From Chloroflexota bacterium (lineage in GTDB: Bacteria; Chloroflexota; UBA6077; CF-72), in contig JAFAOS010000398.1 of NCBI GenBank assembly GCA_019247515.1, forward strand, positions 1 to 64,000: DNA of 64,000 nucleotides. Reading direction: 5' to 3'. This document shows positions 12,695-46,981 of the stretch, in pieces; position 1 is the stretch's first letter; each line of letters begins with the position of its first letter. The notes under the pieces were generated by a model. It ran no database searches. It saw only the letters and a list, made by a program, of their open reading frames with translations, and was not told the DNA's origin. The translations under genes were made by a program, and so were the position numbers.

Positions 12695-12955
12695 TTAGTG
12701 GACTTGCTTGTGTTTGGCGCCGCCGCGACGTAGCGACGCGCTCTCGCCTGAGAGCGTCGGCGGCTGGGTCGAGACGATGGTCCAGCGCGTATCGCCGATC
12801 AGCACCAGGGTGCGGGTCGCGTCCACGACCGCGGCGGCGGGCGAGACTTTCAGTTGTGCCAGGAGCGCCTCGACGGCCGCCTGTCGCGTTTCGGCTTGGA
12901 GCTGAAACTCGCGTCCGGTGCGCCGCTGGCCTTCCAGCTCGATCGCCTTGAACGT
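12695..12955 (-). CDS. Small hypothetical protein with probable ACG start
   Basis: An 86-residue frame that looks like real protein (FKAIELEGQRRTGREFQLQAE..., then LIGDTRWTIVSTQ). I do not recognise the family. No ATG, GTG or TTG lies at the expected N-terminus. A strong GGAGG site, just past the stop of the upstream gene, sits six bases before an ACG codon. ACG initiation or a mutated ATG is therefore likely. The ORF track shows it only as the tail of a longer frame. It would be the last gene of the molybdenum hydroxylase operon, and ends convergent with the PPOX gene. It is predicted cytoplasmic, with no signal peptide. Confidence 0.55.
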   Translation of the reverse strand, partial: TFKAIELEGQRRTGREFQLQAETRQAAVEALLAQLKVSPAAAVVDATRTLVLIGDTRWTIVSTQPPTLSGESASLRRGGAKHKQVH

Positions 12956-12966
12956 AGCTGACCTCC

Positions 12967-14862
12967 TCAGTTGGCGGCGGTCAGCCCACGGTCCTGCGCC
13001 GACTGGACGAACGAGTTGTCGATGATCGTGCTCGGATCGAAGCCGTTCAGCCGGTCGTTCGATTGCGCCAGCAGCTCCAGCGAGTCGCTGAACGCCGCGG
13101 GCCGCACCCACGGCACCACCGCGTAGACATTCGCCACGCCCCACTGCGCCGTCTGCGTCGCCGTATCGGAGTCGAGATTCAGCCACTTCGCCAGCGACAA
13201 CGAGCCGACATCCGGACGCGAGCGCACCTCGTTGAGCCCCTGGATCTCCGCGTCCACGAAGCGCTGGACCAGGTCGCGGTTGGCATCTCGCCAGTCACGG
13301 CGGACCACCATCGCATTGTTCAGGTTGGGTAGACCACTGGCGGCCAGGTTGTACAGGGACGGGAAGCCGGCCGCTTTCAACGGCAGCGACGTCGGCGGCG
13401 CATCGACTTCCGCCTGGATTGCCCCGCTCTGCAGAGCGGCGGATCGGTTCTGGCCGTTGCCGACCGCGATGATCGTCACGTCGGTGCTGGGGTCCAGTCC
13501 GAAGTGCTTGAGCACCACGCGCGTCGCAACGTCGGACGACGAGCCGAAATTGCTGATGCCAATCGTCTTGCCCTTCAACTGGCTGGGATCGGTGATCGAC
13601 GGGTCCACCAGCAGCTCGTACGGGTAGACGGCGATGGGGTCCGCCAGCACCACCAGGTCGGCGCCGGTGGTCACCGCGCCCAGGATGTCCGATCCGCCCA
13701 GGAAGGCGATGTTCGTCGAGCCGGACAGCAGGCCCGCAACGCCACTGGTGCTCGGAATGTACTGGGCGTCCACCTGGATGTCGTTCTGGGCGAAATAGCC
13801 ATTGTCGATGGCGGTCCACAGCGGCAACGGACTGGACGACATCTCCGAATAGCTGACGAGCACGTGCGTTGGCGAATCTGCCTGCGCCACGCCGCCGAAG
13901 ACCATCGACAGCGCCAGCAGCAGCGTCGCGAACACGATCACCAGCCTGCCGCGCACGCCACCCGCGCTCAGCTTCTGCTGGGCGGCGCCCGCCTCCGAAG
14001 GCGGAACGGTCTGCGCCACTCGGAGCGTCAGCGCGCCCGAGGCCACCTGGTCCGCCAGCCCCTGCAGCGCGGCCTGATTCTGGGCGTAGTCGCTCACCCG
14101 CACCTGGTGGACGTGGATGCCGCGCTCGGGTTCGCCCTCGAACGCGCGGACGGCCGCGACATGGCCTCCGTCTCGCACGCAGCCGAGAATCGGGCGGCCG
14201 ATCACGGCCGCGTCGAGCACGCCGTCCACGCCTTGCGGCGCGATCTTGCGCACGGCGGAGGCCAGGTCGGCGTCGCGCGCGACGAAGTCCTGCGCGCCGA
14301 GCCCGCGCACCAGCGCCTCATCGGACGCGGCCGAAACGCCGACCACCCGCAAGCCGTCGGCCACGCCGAGCTGGACGCCGTAGCCGCCAACGGCGCCTGC
14401 CGCGCCCGTGACGAGCAGTGTCTGGCCTCGGGCCAGGCCCATCAGGTCCAGCGCTCGCCGGACCGTGAGGCCATTCATCGGCAGGGTGGCGGCCAGTTCC
14501 AGGCTCACGCCCTCCGGCACGCGCACGACGGAATTGGAAGGCACCACCGCGTACTCGGCTTGCGCTCCGCGGCCGGTCCGCATCGGCACGACGATGGCCA
14601 GCACTCGCTCGCCGACCTGCCACGGGCCGCCCTGTCCCGCGGCGTCGACGGTGCCGGCCAGCTCCATCCCCGCGACATACGGCGGAGTCAGTTTTTGCAG
14701 CTCCGCGGCGCGGCCTCCGGAGCGCATGCCAATGTCCGTGGGATTGACGGTTGCCGCCGCGACGCGTATGCGAACCTCGCCCGGGCCGGGCTCTGGCACC
14801 GGCAGGTCCGCGACCTGCATCACTTCGGGTCCTCCGAAGCGCGAAAACGCGACGGCTTTCAC
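12967..14862 (-). CDS. Fused ORF: zinc-less ADH/quinone oxidoreductase + NMT1/THI5-type substrate-binding protein
   Basis: One uninterrupted 631-residue frame joins two normally separate proteins. Residues 1 to ~308 are an MDR-superfamily NADPH:quinone oxidoreductase, with MKAVAFSRFGGPEVMQV and the nucleotide-binding loop VTGAAGAVGGYGVQLG (151-166). It ends in the usual GGVRGRLVIVF. The chain then runs directly into a signal-peptide-like segment (FATLLLALSMVFGGVAQA) and an NMT1/SsuA-type periplasmic binding domain, a clear paralogue of the 40810 gene (GVSNIGSSSDIATRV versus GISNFGSSSDVATRV). A cytoplasmic enzyme fused to an exported domain makes little sense. Internal initiation at the GTG at 13941 (residue 308), or a lost stop codon, is likely. 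It overlaps the Mo-subunit gene by four bases (ATGA). Confidence 0.85.
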   Translation of the reverse strand: MKAVAFSRFGGPEVMQVADLPVPEPGPGEVRIRVAAATVNPTDIGMRSGGRAAELQKLTPPYVAGMELAGTVDAAGQGGPWQVGERVLAIVVPMRTGRGAQAEYAVVPSNSVVRVPEGVSLELAATLPMNGLTVRRALDLMGLARGQTLLVTGAAGAVGGYGVQLGVADGLRVVGVSAASDEALVRGLGAQDFVARDADLASAVRKIAPQGVDGVLDAAVIGRPILGCVRDGGHVAAVRAFEGEPERGIHVHQVRVSDYAQNQAALQGLADQVASGALTLRVAQTVPPSEAGAAQQKLSAGGVRGRLVIVFATLLLALSMVFGGVAQADSPTHVLVSYSEMSSSPLPLWTAIDNGYFAQNDIQVDAQYIPSTSGVAGLLSGSTNIAFLGGSDILGAVTTGADLVVLADPIAVYPYELLVDPSITDPSQLKGKTIGISNFGSSSDVATRVVLKHFGLDPSTDVTIIAVGNGQNRSAALQSGAIQAEVDAPPTSLPLKAAGFPSLYNLAASGLPNLNNAMVVRRDWRDANRDLVQRFVDAEIQGLNEVRSRPDVGSLSLAKWLNLDSDTATQTAQWGVANVYAVVPWVRPAAFSDSLELLAQSNDRLNGFDPSTIIDNSFVQSAQDRGLTAAN

Positions 14863-17126
14863 AACCCGCCTCCGTCCAGGACCTCGAGGACGCGTTCCGC
14901 GGTCAGCGGAATCTGGGTGACCCGCGCGCCGCTGGCCGCCGCGACCGCGTTGGCAACCGCCGGCGCGACGCTGGTGTTGGTCAGCTCACCCGCCGCTTTG
15001 CCGCCCAGCGGTCCGGGTCCGGATGCGGGGTCGTGGATGAGGACCGTTCTGAAGGGCGGCGTGTCCATCGGACACGGCAACTTGTAGTCGCCCAGGGAGG
15101 GAGTCGTGATGCGGCCGTCCTCGACGCTCAGCTCCTCCATGAGCGCGGCGCCGATGCCGAACATCAGCCCGCCATCCAGTTGGCCCTGGTGGGCGACCGG
15201 ATTGATGATCGTGCCCACATCGGCCACCAGCAGCACGTCGTCGATGGTCACGCTGCCGGTTTCGCGATCGACGCCGGCCTGCACCACGTAGCCGGCAAAC
15301 TCGAAGTCGCCCGGCTCGCCCGCTTTGTGCGTGCCGTCGTACGCGCCGCGGACCTCGACCGGCGGACCCTTGGCGATCTCGTCGGCCACTTCCTCGAACG
15401 CCGCCGAGGTGTCGCCGACCACAAAACGGTCTTCCTCCAGGCGGACCTCGCCGGCCGGCCAGCCCATGGCTTCGGCGGCCAGCTCCTCCAGGCGCGTCTT
15501 CATCTCGGTCGCGCCGGCCTGTGCGGCGCGGCCCAGGATGTGCGTGGTGCGCTGCCCGCCCACACCCGGATCCGGCGCGGGTCCAGACGTATCCGCGTGA
15601 CGAATCACGACCCGTCGCGGATCGACGGACATCACCGCGGCGGCTACACGACGCAGCACGGTATACGCGCCGCCGCCCTGGTCGGCGACACCGGTGATCA
15701 CTTCCACTTCGCCGCCTTCCAGCAGCCGCATCACCACCGCAGTCGCGCCCGCGCCGATGTGCCGCACGCCGAGCGAGACGCCGCGGCCGTGTCCCGCCGG
15801 CAACGGGCTGTGCCAGTTGGATTCGCGTTCCAGCGCATCGAGCACTTCGACCGCACGGGCGCGGTGGACGCGCTCACCGGTCACGCTAGGCTCGCCATCC
15901 CGCAGCGCATTGCGACGCCGCAATTCAATCGGGTCGATACCCAGCGCGGAGGCAATCATGTCGACGTGGCATTCGCTGGCGAACATGGATTGGGGATCGC
16001 CCGGCGCGCGCATCGAGCCGCCCGGAATGCTGTTGGTGTACACCGCTTTGGCTTCGAGTCGCGTGACCGGCACGTGGTAGGCCGTGAGCGTGTTGTGGGC
16101 CGGCACCACCAGCGCCGGACTGACTTTGCCGGCCGCGTAGGCGCCGCCGTCGATGATCGCCTCGGACTCGTGGGCCAGGAACTTGCCATCGCGACTGACC
16201 GCGGTCCGCAGGCGCATGATCGCCGAATGACGCGAGTTGCTGGCTTGCAATTCGTCGGCGTACGTCATCACGGCTTTGATCGGTCGACCAGTAGCGCGCG
16301 CTAGGAAGTAGCCGGTGAACTCGTCGATCGACAGACCCTTGCCGCCGAAGTCACCCCCGATGAACGTGGTGTCGATGACGATGCGAGATTCCGGTAGATC
16401 CAGGGCAGTCGCCAGTTGCTGACGGACCGCCGCCGGCGATTTGTTGGTGTTGACGATGCGGACGCGGTCCTCCTCGTCCATCCACACCACGCACGCGCGC
16501 GGCTCCAGGAAACCCTGGAATTCGCGAGCGGTGGAAAAAGTGTGCTCGAAGACGTGATCCGCGCGCTGGAAAACCGCCTCCAGCGTTTCGCCCGTCTCGG
16601 ATTTCTCCACGACCGAATATCCGTGCATGTTCGGATGGGACGTCTTTGGCCGTTTCCCACCACTCAGAACCTTGTACGAATCGACGTCCGGGTGCAGGAT
16701 GGGCGCGTCATCGTCGAGCGCATTGTCCAGGGTGACCAGGGGCAGATCCTCATACTCGACCTGCACCCGGCGGGCGGCCTCCTCGGCGATCTCGCGCGAC
16801 TCGGCGGCGACGGCGGCCACACGGTCGCCGACGATGCGCACGCGGTCCTTCGCCAGGGCCGGCCAGTCCAGCAGCCTGCGCCCGACACACACGTCGCCGA
16901 TGTCGGCCCCGGTCAGGACGGCGTGGACGCCAGGCAGGTCGCGAGCGGCGGAGGTATCGACTGACACGATCCGCGCGTGCGGACGATCGCTGCGCGTGTA
17001 CGCCATCCACAACATGCCCGGCATGTTGAGGTCGGCGGTGTAGCGCGCCGCGCCCGTGACCTTGAGCGGACCTTCGACGCGGTACTCCGGTTCGGCCAAC
17101 AGTGCTGGTTGCTCGAGGACCTGCAT
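14859..17126 (-). CDS. Molybdenum hydroxylase, molybdopterin-binding (large) subunit
   Basis: A 755-residue xanthine-dehydrogenase-family catalytic subunit. It has the aldehyde-oxidase a/b hammerhead domain at the N-terminus (VTGAARYTADLNMPGMLW), then the Mo-cofactor domain with GGDFGGKG and MRAPGDPQ. The C-terminal AAGELTNTSVAPAVANAV carries the catalytic Glu. It would hydroxylate an aldehyde or N-heterocycle with water as oxygen source. The start is the ATG at 17126, which shares one base with the stop of the [2Fe-2S] gene (TGATG); the 33 extra residues in the track are not real. No FAD subunit is present, as in IorAB-type enzymes. It is a close relative of the Mo half of the 42389 protein. 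Confidence 0.92.
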   Translation of the reverse strand: MQVLEQPALLAEPEYRVEGPLKVTGAARYTADLNMPGMLWMAYTRSDRPHARIVSVDTSAARDLPGVHAVLTGADIGDVCVGRRLLDWPALAKDRVRIVGDRVAAVAAESREIAEEAARRVQVEYEDLPLVTLDNALDDDAPILHPDVDSYKVLSGGKRPKTSHPNMHGYSVVEKSETGETLEAVFQRADHVFEHTFSTAREFQGFLEPRACVVWMDEEDRVRIVNTNKSPAAVRQQLATALDLPESRIVIDTTFIGGDFGGKGLSIDEFTGYFLARATGRPIKAVMTYADELQASNSRHSAIMRLRTAVSRDGKFLAHESEAIIDGGAYAAGKVSPALVVPAHNTLTAYHVPVTRLEAKAVYTNSIPGGSMRAPGDPQSMFASECHVDMIASALGIDPIELRRRNALRDGEPSVTGERVHRARAVEVLDALERESNWHSPLPAGHGRGVSLGVRHIGAGATAVVMRLLEGGEVEVITGVADQGGGAYTVLRRVAAAVMSVDPRRVVIRHADTSGPAPDPGVGGQRTTHILGRAAQAGATEMKTRLEELAAEAMGWPAGEVRLEEDRFVVGDTSAAFEEVADEIAKGPPVEVRGAYDGTHKAGEPGDFEFAGYVVQAGVDRETGSVTIDDVLLVADVGTIINPVAHQGQLDGGLMFGIGAALMEELSVEDGRITTPSLGDYKLPCPMDTPPFRTVLIHDPASGPGPLGGKAAGELTNTSVAPAVANAVAAASGARVTQIPLTAERVLEVLDGGGL

Positions 17127-17635
17127 CAACGGACTCCCACTGCCTCGCGCGGCACCGGTTGTGGACCTGCTTCGGCGGCGGCGAGGATGCTCTCGACGAT
17201 CTTGTAGTACCCGGTGCAGCGGCACAGGTTGCCCATCATCCAGTGCTTGACCTCATCGGAGGTCGGGTGCGGATTTTCCTGCAGCAGGGCCGTTGCGGCG
17301 ATGATCTGGCCCGGCGTGCAGATACCGCACTGGAAGCCGCCGAAGCGGATGAAGGCGTCCTGCAGCGCGGTCAGGTGCTCCTCGTCGGGCGCCAGGCCCT
17401 CGATGGTGGTGACGCGGGCGCCCTCGACGCATACCGCCGGCAGCAGGCACGCGCTCATGACCTGGCCATCGACCAGCACGCTGCACGCGCCGCACACGCC
17501 AACGCTGCAGCCCTCCTTCGTGCCCGTGAGTCCGAGGTCGTCGCGCAACAGGTCGATCAGGCGGCGGTTCGCGCGTATGGACACCTCGCGCGGGACTCCG
17601 TTGAGCTCAAAGCGCACGACGTGCGAGTTTGCCAT
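17126..17635 (-). CDS. Molybdenum hydroxylase [2Fe-2S] small subunit
   Basis: A 169-residue CoxS/IorA-type electron-transfer subunit. The plant-ferredoxin-like cluster is bound by C43, C48, C51 and C63 (CSVGVCGACSVL...C). The C-terminal four-helix cluster is bound by C103, C106, C138 and C140 (CGICTPG...CRC). It passes electrons from the Mo site of the 14859 subunit. I chose the ATG at 17635, five bases after a GGGGAGG site, and not the GTG two codons earlier. It is the first gene of a minus-strand operon with tight overlaps, and lies only 46 bases from the divergent gene at 17682. Confidence 0.93.
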   Translation of the reverse strand: MANSHVVRFELNGVPREVSIRANRRLIDLLRDDLGLTGTKEGCSVGVCGACSVLVDGQVMSACLLPAVCVEGARVTTIEGLAPDEEHLTALQDAFIRFGGFQCGICTPGQIIAATALLQENPHPTSDEVKHWMMGNLCRCTGYYKIVESILAAAEAGPQPVPREAVGVR

Positions 17636-17681
17636 GGTCACCTCCCCATCCTACTGCTCTGATGTACCCTGCCTACGGTCA

Positions 17682-40809: not shown

Positions 40810-41892
40810 ATGCACGCACGCGTCATCTGGCTGCTGGCCGCGATCGGTCTGGTGGTCGCGGCGTGCGGTCCGTCGAGCGCATCCGCACCGGCCGGCGGGG
40901 CGACATCGTCGGCGCCCGGCGGATCGGCACCCGCCGCCACGGCCGCGCCGGCTGCCGCGAAGCCGACCGCCGCGCCGAGCGGTCCAGAAGTTGCCCTCCA
41001 GGTCTCCTACAGCAACCTGATCGCCGACAACCTGCCCGAGTGGCAGGCCTACGAATCTGGCATCTTCAAGCAGAACGGCCTCGACGTCTCGCTCCAGAAC
41101 ATCGCCAGCTCCACCGGCATCCCCGCGCTTCTCGCCGGGCAGGTCCAGATTGCGCACCTCGGTGGCTCGGAGACGCTGAGCGCCGCCGCCTCGGGCGCCG
41201 ACCTGGTCGTCATCGCCATCACCGGGCCGGTCTATCCCTTCGTGTTCATGGCGCCCTCTTCGATCACCAGCGTCGACGAGCTGAAGGGCAAGCGGATCGG
41301 CGTCTCGAACATCGGCTCGTCCTCGGACATCGCCACCCGCGTGATGCTGAACAAGGTCGGGCTCGACCCCGAAAAGGACGTCACGATCGTGCCCGTCGGC
41401 TCGCTGCAGAACCGTACGGCGGCGCTGCTGAACGGCGCCATCGACGGTGGCGTGGCGCAGCCGCCGGATCAGCTTGTGCTGGAGGACAAGGGCTTCCACG
41501 TCATCTACGACCTGGCCGCCCAGAAGCTGCCGTCAGTGGGCGACTGCATCGTCGTCCAGCGCTCGTATCTGAGCGGCAACAAGGAAGTGCTGCAGCGCTA
41601 CATCGACTCAATTGTCGAGGCCATTGCCTACAGCAAGAAGAACAAGACCGAGTCGCTGCCCGTGCTCGGCAAGTACCTGAACACCGACGACCAGCGCGGG
41701 CTGAGCGCGACCTACGACTTCTTCGTGGGCAACGTCACGCCCGACTACCCGATGGTAAGCGCCAACCTGTGGAGCGACGCCGTCGACCAGCTCGGCGCTC
41801 AGAACGACAAGATCAAGAGCTTCGATCTGAACTCGATCCTGGACAACGAGTTCGTCCAGAGCGCCATGGATCGCAAAGTCGGCCAGCAGTAA
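40810..41892 (+). CDS. NMT1/SsuA-type substrate-binding lipoprotein
   Basis: A 360-residue periplasmic-type binding protein. The N-terminal lipobox LVVAAC gives lipid-bound Cys19, followed by an Ala/Pro/Gly linker. The binding domain shows LPEWQAYESGIFKQNGLDVSL, LAGQVQIAHLGGSE and GKRIGVSNIGSSSDIATRVMLN, typical of the NMT1/THI5 and sulfonate/taurine group. It is expected to capture a small organic anion or heterocycle. No SsuB or SsuC partner lies nearby. It is a close paralogue of the C-terminal half of the 12967 fused ORF. It is co-transcribed with the Rieske oxygenase (one-base gap). Confidence 0.92.
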   Translation: MHARVIWLLAAIGLVVAACGPSSASAPAGGATSSAPGGSAPAATAAPAAAKPTAAPSGPEVALQVSYSNLIADNLPEWQAYESGIFKQNGLDVSLQNIASSTGIPALLAGQVQIAHLGGSETLSAAASGADLVVIAITGPVYPFVFMAPSSITSVDELKGKRIGVSNIGSSSDIATRVMLNKVGLDPEKDVTIVPVGSLQNRTAALLNGAIDGGVAQPPDQLVLEDKGFHVIYDLAAQKLPSVGDCIVVQRSYLSGNKEVLQRYIDSIVEAIAYSKKNKTESLPVLGKYLNTDDQRGLSATYDFFVGNVTPDYPMVSANLWSDAVDQLGAQNDKIKSFDLNSILDNEFVQSAMDRKVGQQ

Positions 41893-42388: not shown

Positions 42389-45160
42389 GTGAAGCTCAGG
42401 ATCAATGGCACGTGGCGAGACCTGCCCGACGGTGCCAGAACGCGGACGCTGCTGAGCGTTCTGCGCGACGACCTGCAACTGACCGGCACCAAGGCGGGCT
42501 GCACGATCGGCGTGTGCGGCCTGTGCAGCGTGCTGGTCGACCAGCAGCTCGTTTCGGCGTGCCTGATCCTGCCGGCCGCGATCGACGGCGCAAGTGTCAC
42601 GACCATCGAGGGACTCGATCGGCCCGAGCTCCAGCAGGCGTTTGCCGACCATGCCGGGCTGCAGTGCGGCATCTGCACGCCGGGTCAGATCGTCGCCGCG
42701 TCGGCACTGCTGGACGAGTGCCCGACGCCGTCGCGTCCGGAGATTCGCGCGTGGATGACCGGCAACCTGTGCCGCTGCACCGGCTACCACGGCATCGTCG
42801 AGTCGATCGACTCCGCGGCCGGCCACCAGCACTGCGAACCCTCCGACCGCCTGGACGCGCTCGACAAGGCTCGCGGCGCCACGCGCTACACGAATGACCT
42901 GGCGCACCCGGGCAGGCTCTTCGGGGCCGTGCTGCGCAGCCCCTACCCGCACGCGCGGATCGTGGCGATCGACACTGCCCGCGCCAGAGCGCTGCCCGGC
43001 GTTCACGCGGTCCTGGTCGGCGCCGACATACCCGCCGACGTGCGCGTCGGTCGCAACATGCGCGACATGCCGGTCCTGGCCCGCGACAAGGTCCGCTTCG
43101 TAGGCGAAAAGGTCGCCGCCGTGGCGGCTGAATCGCTCGAGGTGGCCGCGCAGGCGCTGGCGCTGATCGACGTCGAGTACGAAGAATTGCCGGCGGTCTT
43201 CGACCCGCTCCAGGCGATGCAGCCAGACGCGCCGCTCATCCACTCGCCCGAGGACGTCAAAGCCTGGGCCGTCCGCGATCAGGTCGTCCCGGACTATCCC
43301 AATGGCGCTTCCGCTCCGACCTTCGGGGCGACGCGGGCCGAGGTCGAGGGCGCGCTCGCCGATGCGCCGCTCGTCTTCGAGCACACCTTCCACACGTCGA
43401 TGCAGCACCAGGCCTACCTCGAGCCGCACGGCTGCATCGTCGAGGTCGACGACGGTGGCGTGGCGCACATCTGGGCCGCCCAGAAGGCGCCGCTGCTCCT
43501 GGCGCGCTACGTCCGCGAAGGACTCGGCCTGCGTCGCGAACAGCTCGACATCCACCTGATGCCGCTCGGCGGCGATTTCGGCGGCAAGGGGTCGTTCATG
43601 GACATTCCGCTGGCGTACCTGCTGGCGCGCGCCAGCCGACGCGCGGTCAAGATGGCCATGAGCTACACCGACGAGCTCACCGCCGCCAACCCGCGCCACG
43701 CGGCCACCATCGTCGTGCGCTCGGGCGTCGATCGCGACGGGCGGCTGCTGGCGCGCTGGGTGCGCGGCTACTTCGCCAGCGGTGGGTACGCCGCGTTCAA
43801 GCCCAGCACCGACACCACCTTGCCGGGCTTCCGTCGCGGCGCGCTCGGGCCGTACGCGGTGCCGCACTTCCGCGCCGAGTGCCACATGATCTACACCAAC
43901 ACGGTTCCGTGTGGCCACATGCGCAGTCCGGGCGAGGCCCAGGTGGCGTACGCCATCGAGGCGCACACGGAGCTGATCGCCCGCGCCATGGGCATCGACT
44001 CGGTCGACTTTCGGGTGCTGAACGCCACTACCCATCCCCGCGCCGCGGATGACGACGAGCGCCCTCTCCGTTTCCCTCTCCCTCTGGGAGAGGGCACGGG
44101 TGAGGGCTACGTACGACGCGAGTCTACTTTCGGACAGATTCGCAACCCTCACCCGCGCTTCGCGCGACCTCTCCCAGGGGGAGAGGTGCCGCCGCGGGCC
44201 GTCGAGGTGCTCAAGGCCGCCGCCGAGGCGATCGGCTGGAACACGCCCCGGCCGCCTGGGGTTGGCCGCGGCCTTGCCCTGCTCGAGTTTTCGACCTCGC
44301 CCGGCATCTATGCTGGCATCCTGCGCGTCGCCCGCGACGGCCGGGTCACCATCCAGACGCCGATCGTCGAACAGGGCGCCGGCATGCTGACGGTCTTCCG
44401 CCGCATCGTCGCTCAAGAGCTCGGCGTCTCGTTACAGCAGGTCAGCGTCCAGCAGTCGATCGAGGACATCGAGGACGATCGGGGCGTCGGCGGCAGCCGC
44501 ACCACGCGGCTGGTTGGCAAGCTGCTGATCCAGCTCAGTCGCCGCATCCAGGCGCGCCTGGCCGACCTGCTTGCCGCCGAGTTCGGCGTCGATCGCGACG
44601 CCGTAGCCGCGACTCCCGATGGCTTCAGCCTGGGAGCGTCAGCTCGCCGGGTGAGCTTCGATCAGGCCGCGGCGCTGCTCGAAGACACGCTGAGCGAATC
44701 GCTCGTCTTCCGCGCCACCGAGCGTGACGCAGCGACCGTCTTTCTGGCCCAGGCCGCCGAGGTGTCGGTCGATCGCGAGACGGGCGCCGTCCGACCCTTG
44801 CGCATCGTCAACGTGCAGGAAGTCGGCCGCATCGTCGACCCGCTGCTGGCCCGGCGGCAGATCGAGGGCGCGACGCTCCAGGGCCTGGGCTACGCCACGA
44901 TGGAGCAGCTGGTGCTGCAGGATGGCCGCGTGCAGAACCAGAACCTGCACGAGTACAAGATTCCAACCCAGGCTGACACGCCAATCGTCGAGACCATCAT
45001 GCTGGCCCACGATCCACGCCTGGGCCTCACCCCGATCGGCGAAGCCGCCGTCGCGGGCGCGGCGCCCGCGATCGTCAACGCGGTGGTGGACGTGGTCGGC
45101 CCGGCGGCGTTCGATCTGCCGCTGTCCCCAGAGAAGGTGTTGGTACCCTCCGGCGGATGA
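42389..45160 (+). CDS. One-chain molybdenum hydroxylase: [2Fe-2S] domain fused to Mo-binding domain
   Basis: A 923-residue fusion of two usually separate subunits. Residues 1-148 are the [2Fe-2S] part, with clusters at C38/C43/C46/C58 and C93/C96/C128/C130. From about residue 152 the Mo subunit begins (LDALDKARGATRYTNDLAHPGRL), with GGDFGGKG, CGHMRSPGEAQ and the catalytic Glu in TPIGEAAVAG. There is no FAD domain. Its closest relative here is the two-gene enzyme at 14859-17635. About 40 residues around 560-600 are encoded by an inserted pair of hairpin repeats, with the frame kept. A GTG start follows GAAGGCGG. It overlaps the next gene by four bases (ATGA). Activity with the insertion is uncertain. 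Confidence 0.92.
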   Translation: MKLRINGTWRDLPDGARTRTLLSVLRDDLQLTGTKAGCTIGVCGLCSVLVDQQLVSACLILPAAIDGASVTTIEGLDRPELQQAFADHAGLQCGICTPGQIVAASALLDECPTPSRPEIRAWMTGNLCRCTGYHGIVESIDSAAGHQHCEPSDRLDALDKARGATRYTNDLAHPGRLFGAVLRSPYPHARIVAIDTARARALPGVHAVLVGADIPADVRVGRNMRDMPVLARDKVRFVGEKVAAVAAESLEVAAQALALIDVEYEELPAVFDPLQAMQPDAPLIHSPEDVKAWAVRDQVVPDYPNGASAPTFGATRAEVEGALADAPLVFEHTFHTSMQHQAYLEPHGCIVEVDDGGVAHIWAAQKAPLLLARYVREGLGLRREQLDIHLMPLGGDFGGKGSFMDIPLAYLLARASRRAVKMAMSYTDELTAANPRHAATIVVRSGVDRDGRLLARWVRGYFASGGYAAFKPSTDTTLPGFRRGALGPYAVPHFRAECHMIYTNTVPCGHMRSPGEAQVAYAIEAHTELIARAMGIDSVDFRVLNATTHPRAADDDERPLRFPLPLGEGTGEGYVRRESTFGQIRNPHPRFARPLPGGEVPPRAVEVLKAAAEAIGWNTPRPPGVGRGLALLEFSTSPGIYAGILRVARDGRVTIQTPIVEQGAGMLTVFRRIVAQELGVSLQQVSVQQSIEDIEDDRGVGGSRTTRLVGKLLIQLSRRIQARLADLLAAEFGVDRDAVAATPDGFSLGASARRVSFDQAAALLEDTLSESLVFRATERDAATVFLAQAAEVSVDRETGAVRPLRIVNVQEVGRIVDPLLARRQIEGATLQGLGYATMEQLVLQDGRVQNQNLHEYKIPTQADTPIVETIMLAHDPRLGLTPIGEAAVAGAAPAIVNAVVDVVGPAAFDLPLSPEKVLVPSGG
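44074..44186. repeat. Two inverted hairpin repeats (copies 4 and 5) inserted inside a coding sequence
   Basis: The left copy CCCTCTCCCTCTGGGAGAGGGCACGGGTGAGGG (44074-44106) and the right copy, in opposite orientation (CCCTCACCCGCG... CCTCTCCCAGGGGGAGAGG, 44146-44186), frame a 39-base spacer. Together they form an insertion whose translation (PLPLGEGTGEG...NPHPRFARPLPGGE) is absent from the paralogue at 14859. The reading frame stays open through it. Confidence 0.85.
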
Positions 45161-45474
45161 CCTCGCCCGACTGGACCGCCGTCGACGCGCACCACGACGA
45201 ATACGCGCGCCTGCACTCGGCCAGCGACCACGTCGCGCGGGCGGTCGCCGAGCTGATCCATGCCGCCCAGCAGGTCGGCGATCACGCCACCGCCGTGGCC
45301 CTCGGCGAAGCCATCGAAAGCCTGCAACTGACCCAGGCGCAGCTCGCGGCCGCGGCCGAGCGCGCGTACTCGCTGTCGGAAATAGCGCGGCGCAGCGCGC
45401 GGCAGGCGGCCTTCCAGCGCCAGTTCGATCAGGCAACCGAGCGCGCCACGCCCGCGGACGATGCTCCTCGCTGA
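45157..45474 (+). CDS. Small helical hypothetical protein
   Basis: A 105-residue protein, all-alpha by appearance, rich in Ala, Gln, Glu and Arg, with heptad-like stretches (AVAELIHAAQQVGDHATAVALGEAIESLQLTQAQLAAAAERAYSL). It has no signal peptide or membrane segment, and I do not recognise the family. The start overlaps the Mo hydroxylase stop by four bases, and its 3' end overlaps the DNA ligase start by 14 bases, so it is translated as part of the same unit. The coupling gives no clear functional link. Confidence 0.65.
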   Translation: MTSPDWTAVDAHHDEYARLHSASDHVARAVAELIHAAQQVGDHATAVALGEAIESLQLTQAQLAAAAERAYSLSEIARRSARQAAFQRQFDQATERATPADDAPR

Positions 45475-46981
45475 GATCGTCGAGACGTCCGCTGCCGTCG
45501 GCGGCACCGCGGCCCGCTCCGAGAAGATCGACCGCCTTGCCGCCACCCTCAAACGCGTCCAGCCGGGTGAGGCGTCGATCGCCGCGGCCTACCTGTCCAG
45601 TCAGCTGCGACAGCGCCAGATCGGCGTCGGCTACGCCTCCATGCGTGACCTGCCCGAGCCCGCCGCGGCTCCGTCGCTGACCCTCCAGCAGGTCGACGCC
45701 GCGCTGGAGTCCATCGGCACGCTAGGGGGCAAGGACTCGCAGGCCGAACGCCGACGCCTGCTCCAGCAGCTTCTGGCGCGGGCGACTCGGGAGGAGCAGC
45801 ACTTCCTGGTGCGTTTGATCATTGGCGAGCTGCGCCAGGGTGCGCTGGAGGGCGTCATGCACGAGGCCCTCGCCCGCGCGCTGAACGTTCCGGTGGCCGA
45901 CGTGCGCCGCGCGGTGATGCTCCGCGGCGACCTGCACGCCGTCGCCGAAGCGGGCCTGCGCGACGGGTCGGCCGGACTCGACGAGTTCCGCCTGCGCGTG
46001 GGCCAGCCCGTCCAGCCGATGCTGGCCCAGTCCGCCACGTCGGTGGCCGCTGCCCTGGAGCGCGCCTCACCCGCGGCCATCGACTGGAAGCTCGATGGCG
46101 CGCGCGTTCAGATCCACCGCCAGGGCACGGACATCCGCGTCTTCACCCGCAGCCTGGACGACATCACCAGCCGCGTTCCCGAGCTCGTCGAGATGACCCG
46201 CTCGCTCGAAGTGGACTCGATCGTCCTCGACGGCGAAACCCTGGCCCTGAAGCCCGACGGTCGTCCGCACCCGTTCCAGGTCAGTGCCAGTCGGTTCGGC
46301 AGTCGGCTGGACGTCGAGCGCCTGCGCGCCAGGTTGCCGCTGACGCCTTTCGTCTTCGACATCCTGCACCTGGACGGTGAGGACCTGATCGACCACTCTC
46401 TTGACGAGCGTCTGGCCATGCTGAGTGGCGCCGTCGCCGAACACTGGCGCGTCCCGCGCATTGTGACTGCCGACGTCGAAGCGGCCGACGCCTTCGTCGC
46501 CGACACCCTGGCGCGCGGGCACGAAGGCGTCGTCGTCAAGGCGCTGAACTCGCTGTACGAGGCCGGCCGTCGAGGGACCGGGTGGATCAAGGTCAAGCCC
46601 GTGCACTCGTTCGACCTGGTCATTCTGGCCGCCGAGTGGGGCCATGGTCGACGCAGCGGCTGGCTTTCGAACCTGCACCTGGGCGCGCGGGAGCCGGCCA
46701 CCGGCGAGTTCGTGATGCTGGGGAAGACGTTCAAAGGTCTGACCGACGAGATGCTGCGCTGGCAAACCGATCGCCTGCAGGCGATCGAATCGCACCGCGA
46801 CCGCTGGAGCGTGTATGTCCGCCCCGAGCTGGTGGTCGAGGTCAGGTTCGACGGCGTGCAGCGCAGCTCGCGCTACCCCGGTGGCGTAGCGCTGCGCTTT
46901 GCGCGTGTGGTGCGGTATCGCGAGGACAAGCGGCCCGAGGAAGCCGACACGCTCGAAGCGGTTCAAGCGCTGTGCGGCTAG
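45461..46981 (+). CDS. ATP-dependent DNA ligase (LigB-type)
   Basis: A 506-residue ligase with the three-domain layout of mycobacterial LigB and archaeal/eukaryal ligase I. The N-terminal DNA-binding domain has FLVRLIIGELRQGALEGVMHEALARAL. The nucleotidyltransferase domain has active Lys210 in DWKLDGARVQIH, then LDGETLAL, FDILHLDGEDL, EGVVVKALNSLY and WIKVKP. An OB-fold follows, ending in FARVVRYREDK. It seals nicks using ATP, probably in repair beside an NAD-dependent LigA elsewhere. Ku and polymerase-domain partners of end joining are absent here. The start overlaps the previous gene by 14 bases. Confidence 0.94.
   Translation: MLLAEIVETSAAVGGTAARSEKIDRLAATLKRVQPGEASIAAAYLSSQLRQRQIGVGYASMRDLPEPAAAPSLTLQQVDAALESIGTLGGKDSQAERRRLLQQLLARATREEQHFLVRLIIGELRQGALEGVMHEALARALNVPVADVRRAVMLRGDLHAVAEAGLRDGSAGLDEFRLRVGQPVQPMLAQSATSVAAALERASPAAIDWKLDGARVQIHRQGTDIRVFTRSLDDITSRVPELVEMTRSLEVDSIVLDGETLALKPDGRPHPFQVSASRFGSRLDVERLRARLPLTPFVFDILHLDGEDLIDHSLDERLAMLSGAVAEHWRVPRIVTADVEAADAFVADTLARGHEGVVVKALNSLYEAGRRGTGWIKVKPVHSFDLVILAAEWGHGRRSGWLSNLHLGAREPATGEFVMLGKTFKGLTDEMLRWQTDRLQAIESHRDRWSVYVRPELVVEVRFDGVQRSSRYPGGVALRFARVVRYREDKRPEEADTLEAVQALCG

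Follow-up and report, generated by a model that had tools for sequence, protein, structure and literature searches.

A quinone-oxidoreductase-like gene joined in frame to an exported-type binding protein in a single Chloroflexota genome

How does an enzyme expected in the cytoplasm come to share one reading frame with a binding protein of exported type, and what would such a frame produce? The question is raised by a 64,000-nucleotide stretch of a Chloroflexota contig (the window), in which one open frame of 631 codons runs along the minus strand from 14862 to 12967, with a GTG start, a TGA stop and no internal stop codon. An earlier reading made from the sequence alone (the sequence-only reading) had singled out this frame at 12967-14862 without giving its strand; the frame itself is confirmed. 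The features of the locus are as follows.

17126-17641, minus strand: 2Fe-2S small subunit of the hydroxylase, first gene of the operon
14859-17126, minus strand: molybdenum hydroxylase large subunit (xanthine dehydrogenase / 4-hydroxybenzoyl-CoA reductase type), ATG at 17126
12967-14862, minus strand: fused 631-aa frame, MDR oxidoreductase and NMT1-type binding protein (open reading frame and Pfam)
13930-14862, minus strand: MDR/quinone-oxidoreductase-like half, residues 1-311 (Pfam, C-termini of relatives, structural model)
12970-13929, minus strand: binding-protein half, residues 312-631, between the last MDR codon and the small ORF
13879-13956, minus strand: dual-use segment V303-A328, comprising the last MDR strand (306-310) and a predicted signal-peptide n/h region with a cleavage-like site between AQA and DS
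13954-13956, minus strand: candidate internal GTG start (V303) for a free binding protein; Shine-Dalgarno energy -5.9 kcal/mol, not above background
12695-12955, minus strand: small ORF of 86 aa with no Pfam family, placed by gene order in two related genomes (G001 and G002)

The genes form a minus-strand operon in the order 2Fe-2S subunit, molybdenum subunit, fused gene, small ORF. At the MDR start, the GTG codon shares bases with the molybdenum hydroxylase stop (TTGTGA) and lies downstream of a strong Shine-Dalgarno sequence, GGAGG (-9.5 kcal/mol). Scanning for promoters and terminators and folding the RNA at the junction gave nothing above chance, and neither an ABC permease nor an ATPase gene was noticed right next to the fused gene.

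Two full-length domains in one frame

The sequence-only reading had proposed that each half of the frame is complete, and both proposals were borne out. In the N-terminal half, the Pfam families ADH_N (residues 26-117, 7.5e-16) and ADH_zinc_N_2 (188-309) score above cut-off and together extend over the full half. Its GroES-like and Rossmann domains, its AAGAVG nucleotide-binding motif and its fold liken it to the PIG3/QOR group of the MDR superfamily (3tqh, 1qor), and the structural model (pLDDT 88 overall, about 95 up to residue 310) matches 3tqh with a TM score of 0.88 (target-normalised), the fold of known quinone oxidoreductases. The last strand of the model spans residues 306-310 with high confidence, and the residues beyond are disordered. 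Unlike quinone oxidoreductases and enoyl-reductase-like MDRs, the fused MDR has no C-terminal stop, and it falls below every NCBIfam curated cut-off (TIGR02824: 118 bits against 296.8), so that no substrate class can be assigned to it. Neither half reaches a curated NCBIfam subfamily cut-off, so the names 'quinone oxidoreductase' and 'SsuA-like' denote a class and nothing narrower.

The closest MDR orthologues are those of G002, from the same genus (75% identical), and G011 (62%); they end in GGVRGRLVIVF and GGVRGRLVVAF, respectively, each followed by a stop codon. A C-terminus could be read for 34 MDR relatives, the window's own included; 33 of them stop no more than 7 residues from F311, and that of the window is the only one to continue past this point. 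Comparison with the G002 orthologue (dN 0.17, dS 1.22) points to purifying selection on the MDR, though most of the divergence may predate the fusion.

The C-terminal half carries an NMT1 domain (Pfam, residues 347-551; 3.6e-15, 56.9 bits against a cut-off of 20.5), and its model reaches a pLDDT of 90.8 overall. The halves were modelled separately; a joint alignment of MDR and binding-protein relatives had mixed them. Fold searches with the binding half returned TauA and SsuA as top matches; the regulatory domain of CmpABCD and the cytoplasmic enzymes Thi5 and DszB were also among the matches. The half thus resembles the NMT1/THI5-like, SsuA/TauA-type binding proteins (PF09084), sharing the fold of TauA, SsuA and thiamin-precursor binding proteins. 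These relatives are predicted to be lipoproteins encoded on their own, most of them with a linker rich in Ala and Pro, whereas the fused half has no lipobox, begins inside its own signal-peptide core and has no start outside the MDR codons. A lipobox is present in about 32-33 of the 37 relatives of the binding half (32 by a script pattern). Of the five that the pattern missed, L162 has a lipobox visible in the full reading, L013, L190 and L202 have a cysteine within an imperfect motif, and the sequence of L003 is truncated. Residues 312-631 of the fused protein contain no cysteine at all and hence no lipobox, so the fused half lacks the lipid anchor of its clade. The relatives are at most 45% identical to it, and no direct donor of the gene was found among them.

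The window also contains a free-standing NMT1 lipoprotein paralogue (40810-41892, plus strand), 43% identical to the fused half. Its start lies one base past the stop codon of a LigXa-like Rieske oxygenase gene, and it is followed by a molybdenum hydroxylase (42389-45160, plus strand) that combines 2Fe-2S and molybdopterin subunits in a single 923-aa chain, the counterparts of which are separate genes at 14859-17641. An ATP-dependent DNA ligase (45461-46981, plus strand) adjoins this hydroxylase cluster.

A second fusion of an MDR to a binding protein was found in none of the 3 genomes of the genus, 16 of the order, 29 of the class and 400 of the phylum, nor among the matches from a collection of genome contigs; the phylum search scored the best three candidates per genome, among which a fusion would be expected. 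For the class and phylum genomes this comes from searching with the full-length protein, the check suggested by the sequence-only reading; the best matches cover either one half or the other. An ancestral or widespread fusion is therefore rejected. Long frames at four binding-protein matches (L012 and L159-L161, 520-785 aa) were dismissed as MDR fusions, the upstream parts being a Rieske oxygenase or Arg-rich frames. In L012 (G001:C658) a Rieske-oxygenase-like frame leads into the binding-protein frame through seemingly frame-shifted sequence, probably an effect of assembly or frameshift. A literature search found nothing relevant on a fusion of this kind.

Gene order in the genus and the origin of the fusion

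Three arrangements of the operon are found in the genus. The small ORF directly follows the molybdenum hydroxylase in G001. An MDR lies between them in G002, where the C-terminus given above is followed by TGA-TAA and the small ORF is located about 20 nt past the last MDR codon. The MDR of the window reaches the same last residue without a stop and is followed by the binding protein and then the small ORF. The genes flanking the fusion are thus syntenic in two genomes of the same genus that have no binding protein at the site, which is more than chance.

The small ORF encodes a genus-restricted protein of about 86-88 aa (12695-12955, minus strand; L009:2454-2717; L180:1498-1760, minus strand) with the C-terminus SLRR[AG]GAKHK. 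It is present downstream of the molybdenum hydroxylase operon in 3/3 genus members; in the 13 remaining genomes of the order no copy turned up. In the window it begins with ACG (12953-12955, minus strand) behind a perfect AGGAGGT; the matching codon is ATG in G002, and the ATG of G001 lies one codon earlier. The ACG would be either a rare ACG start or the remnant of a start lost at the insertion.

Neither of the other two genus members has the binding protein at the site, so an insertion in the window's lineage is most likely. The most economical history suggested by these gene orders is that the MDR was gained first and the binding protein arrived afterwards at the MDR stop, most likely filling the gap between MDR and small ORF and replacing the stop codon. 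The same absence argues against a stop lost between two old neighbours, an option raised by the sequence-only reading. Even if the binding protein had been lost in G002, the MDR stop would be ancestral, since more distant MDRs have it too. Relatives with a stop codon between the halves had been named beforehand as evidence against a fusion; they exist for the MDR, but nothing of the binding protein lies behind their stop. This refutes an ancestral fusion and leaves the fused frame of the window untouched. The best reading is a recent, single-lineage gene fusion by insertion, seen in one MAG.

The junction and its predicted products

The two halves meet between F311 and A312 with a spacer of zero; the MDR orthologues end exactly at F311. 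As the sequence-only reading had noted, the MDR C-terminus runs straight into a signal-peptide core: directly after F311 comes ATLLLALSMVFGGVAQA, which comprises the core and an AxA site, and then the mature binding domain, beginning DSPTHVLVSYSE. MDR codons encode the n-region of this signal, with its two arginines and initial hydrophobic residues, and residues 307-325 are the hydropathy maximum of the whole 631-aa protein. The predicted export signal of the binding half has a hydrophobic core and an AQA site, and would have a start of its own only via an internal GTG. Two such codons were considered. The GTG at 13941 proposed by the sequence-only reading is present (V308), but that at 13956 (V303) is the better candidate. 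Their Shine-Dalgarno energies, -5.7 to -5.9 kcal/mol, are no stronger than the background level seen at internal codons.

We favour, with a probability of roughly one half, a model in which the insertion-born fusion is translated as one chain, with the MDR inside the cell and the binding domain exported and perhaps cleaved after AQA328. The insertion would have occurred between the last MDR sense codon and the start of the small ORF, within the molybdenum hydroxylase/MDR operon, bringing in the signal core and mature domain without their own start and n-region and removing the MDR stop, so that the operon would be translated as a single 631-aa chain from the MDR GTG. It is the lack of a Shine-Dalgarno signal above background at the internal GTGs that leads us to infer the whole chain. 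The MDR domain would fold in the cytoplasm. An internal signal sequence would begin in its last codons (VRGRLVIVF), which would contribute the positive charges and the initial hydrophobic residues, and would be completed by ATLLLALSMVFGGVAQA. The binding domain would be exported through Sec, and signal peptidase may then cut after AQA328. Such a cut would free the binding protein, and a quinone-oxidoreductase-like enzyme carrying a short hydrophobic tail would stay behind at the cytoplasmic side of the membrane.

The fold of the MDR bears on this last step. If residues 306-310 are kept as a strand, about 14 hydrophobic residues are left, which suffices for a signal core and is short for an anchor; cleavage after AQA328 is thus rated likelier than a stable anchor, and on the model it probably takes place. 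The sequence-only idea that the central segment anchors the enzyme in the membrane is possible in itself but in tension with this fold. Internal initiation at GTG 13956 might tentatively be assigned a supplementary role, adding some free binding protein. Besides the brevity of this hydrophobic stretch, the origin in one MAG and the ABC genes not noticed alongside, two points speak against the single chain: a folded domain of 311 residues ahead of the signal sequence may hinder export, and GTG 13956 would by itself give a textbook signal peptide.

The second of these points is the core of the strongest rival, which is possible though clearly the less probable account: two proteins are made from one frame, the binding protein starting at the internal GTG 13956 (or 13941) and being exported as an ordinary pre-protein, with the MDR merely extended and the frame continuous only through loss of the MDR stop at the insertion. 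Translation from GTG 13956 would yield MRGRLVIVFATLLLALSMVFGGVAQA followed by DS, that is, a charged n-region, a hydrophobic core and an AxA site, and the relatives of the binding half are themselves free-standing. Against this, the energies at the internal GTGs do not exceed background, the start would lie inside a translated frame, and the MDR would still have no stop, so that the fused chain would also be made unless translation ended otherwise. Genuine fusion and internal initiation, both offered by the sequence-only reading, stay live.

It is unlikely that the junction is an artefact, with the stop lost through a base error or the contig joining two molecules. The source genome, a MAG of 579 contigs with 6% contamination, and the lack of a second copy of the junction in about 400 genomes would allow such an origin. 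However, both flanks are syntenic with relatives, and to build a chimeric contig two false joins would be required, each at a gene border. A check of all three frames for a stop and a usable start also disfavours the simple base error or indel near 13941 that the sequence-only reading had listed: only the MDR frame yields the hydrophobic core, a single substitution would not make a stop of any of the 7 codons that follow F311, and the other two frames offer the binding protein no start codon after their last stop. GC3 is alike in the halves (0.86 for the MDR, 0.88 for the binding half); overall GC is 0.73 and 0.66, the latter being that of the free-standing paralogue.

We also consider it improbable that the insertion damaged both MDR and small ORF and that the fused gene is decaying into a pseudogene. 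The missing MDR stop and the ACG of the small ORF, where relatives have ATG, fit such decay, but both halves are full length, free of stops and frameshifts, and retain conserved motifs and good models, and the ACG is preceded by a perfect Shine-Dalgarno sequence.

Comparison with known systems and a possible role

Proteins of the ToxR/CadC type are bitopic, with a cytoplasmic N-domain, one membrane segment and an external C-domain, and the fusion would be predicted to share this topology if left uncleaved. The cytoplasmic part of ToxR/CadC is a DNA-binding domain, whereas that of the fusion is a redox enzyme and its segment bears the cleavage-like AQA site. A speculative extension, to which we give little weight, is a membrane-spanning, ligand-sensing oxidoreductase in which an external binding domain, an uncleaved segment and a cytoplasmic MDR reductase would couple capture outside to reduction inside, one insertion having made nine MDR codons serve both as last enzyme strand and as signal-sequence start.

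Binding-protein folds joined to other functions in one chain are known from CmpC, the ATPase of a bicarbonate transporter, and OpuA and GlnPQ are transport proteins with fused binding domains. The partners in these cases are ABC transporter subunits, while the partner in the window is an oxidoreductase. By analogy with the SBP-like C-terminal domain of CmpC, the binding domain could stay inside the cell, sensing a ligand and regulating the oxidoreductase. The matches to the CmpABCD regulatory domain and to cytoplasmic Thi5 and DszB, together with its position C-terminal to a cytoplasmic enzyme, are in keeping with this proposal, which is nonetheless very improbable: a strongly hydrophobic segment of 14-19 residues with an AxA site separates the domains, the nearest relatives are predicted exported lipoproteins, and the binding half has no cysteine. 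The chemistries of Thi5 and DszB are cysteine-dependent, and a cytoplasmic NMT1-fold enzyme of their kind was rejected on that last ground.

The position of the paralogue between a Rieske oxygenase and a molybdenum hydroxylase suggests that this clade of binding proteins accompanies ring-modifying oxidoreductases. From this gene context, it is plausible that an aromatic or heterocyclic compound is taken up to supply the co-encoded hydroxylase and reductase. Under the single-chain model, both parts of the fusion would work with the hydroxylase to take up and turn over a single small substrate, perhaps an aromatic one.

Taken together, the locus shows a gene fusion with unusual clarity: its likely before-states occur in the same genus, and it crosses compartments by joining a cytoplasmic enzyme to an exported protein. 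If both halves work, the C-terminal strand of an enzyme would have been co-opted as an n-region and a signal sequence rebuilt at the point of fusion. If internal initiation holds instead, the locus would comprise overlapping in-frame genes in which common codons carry different structural meaning.
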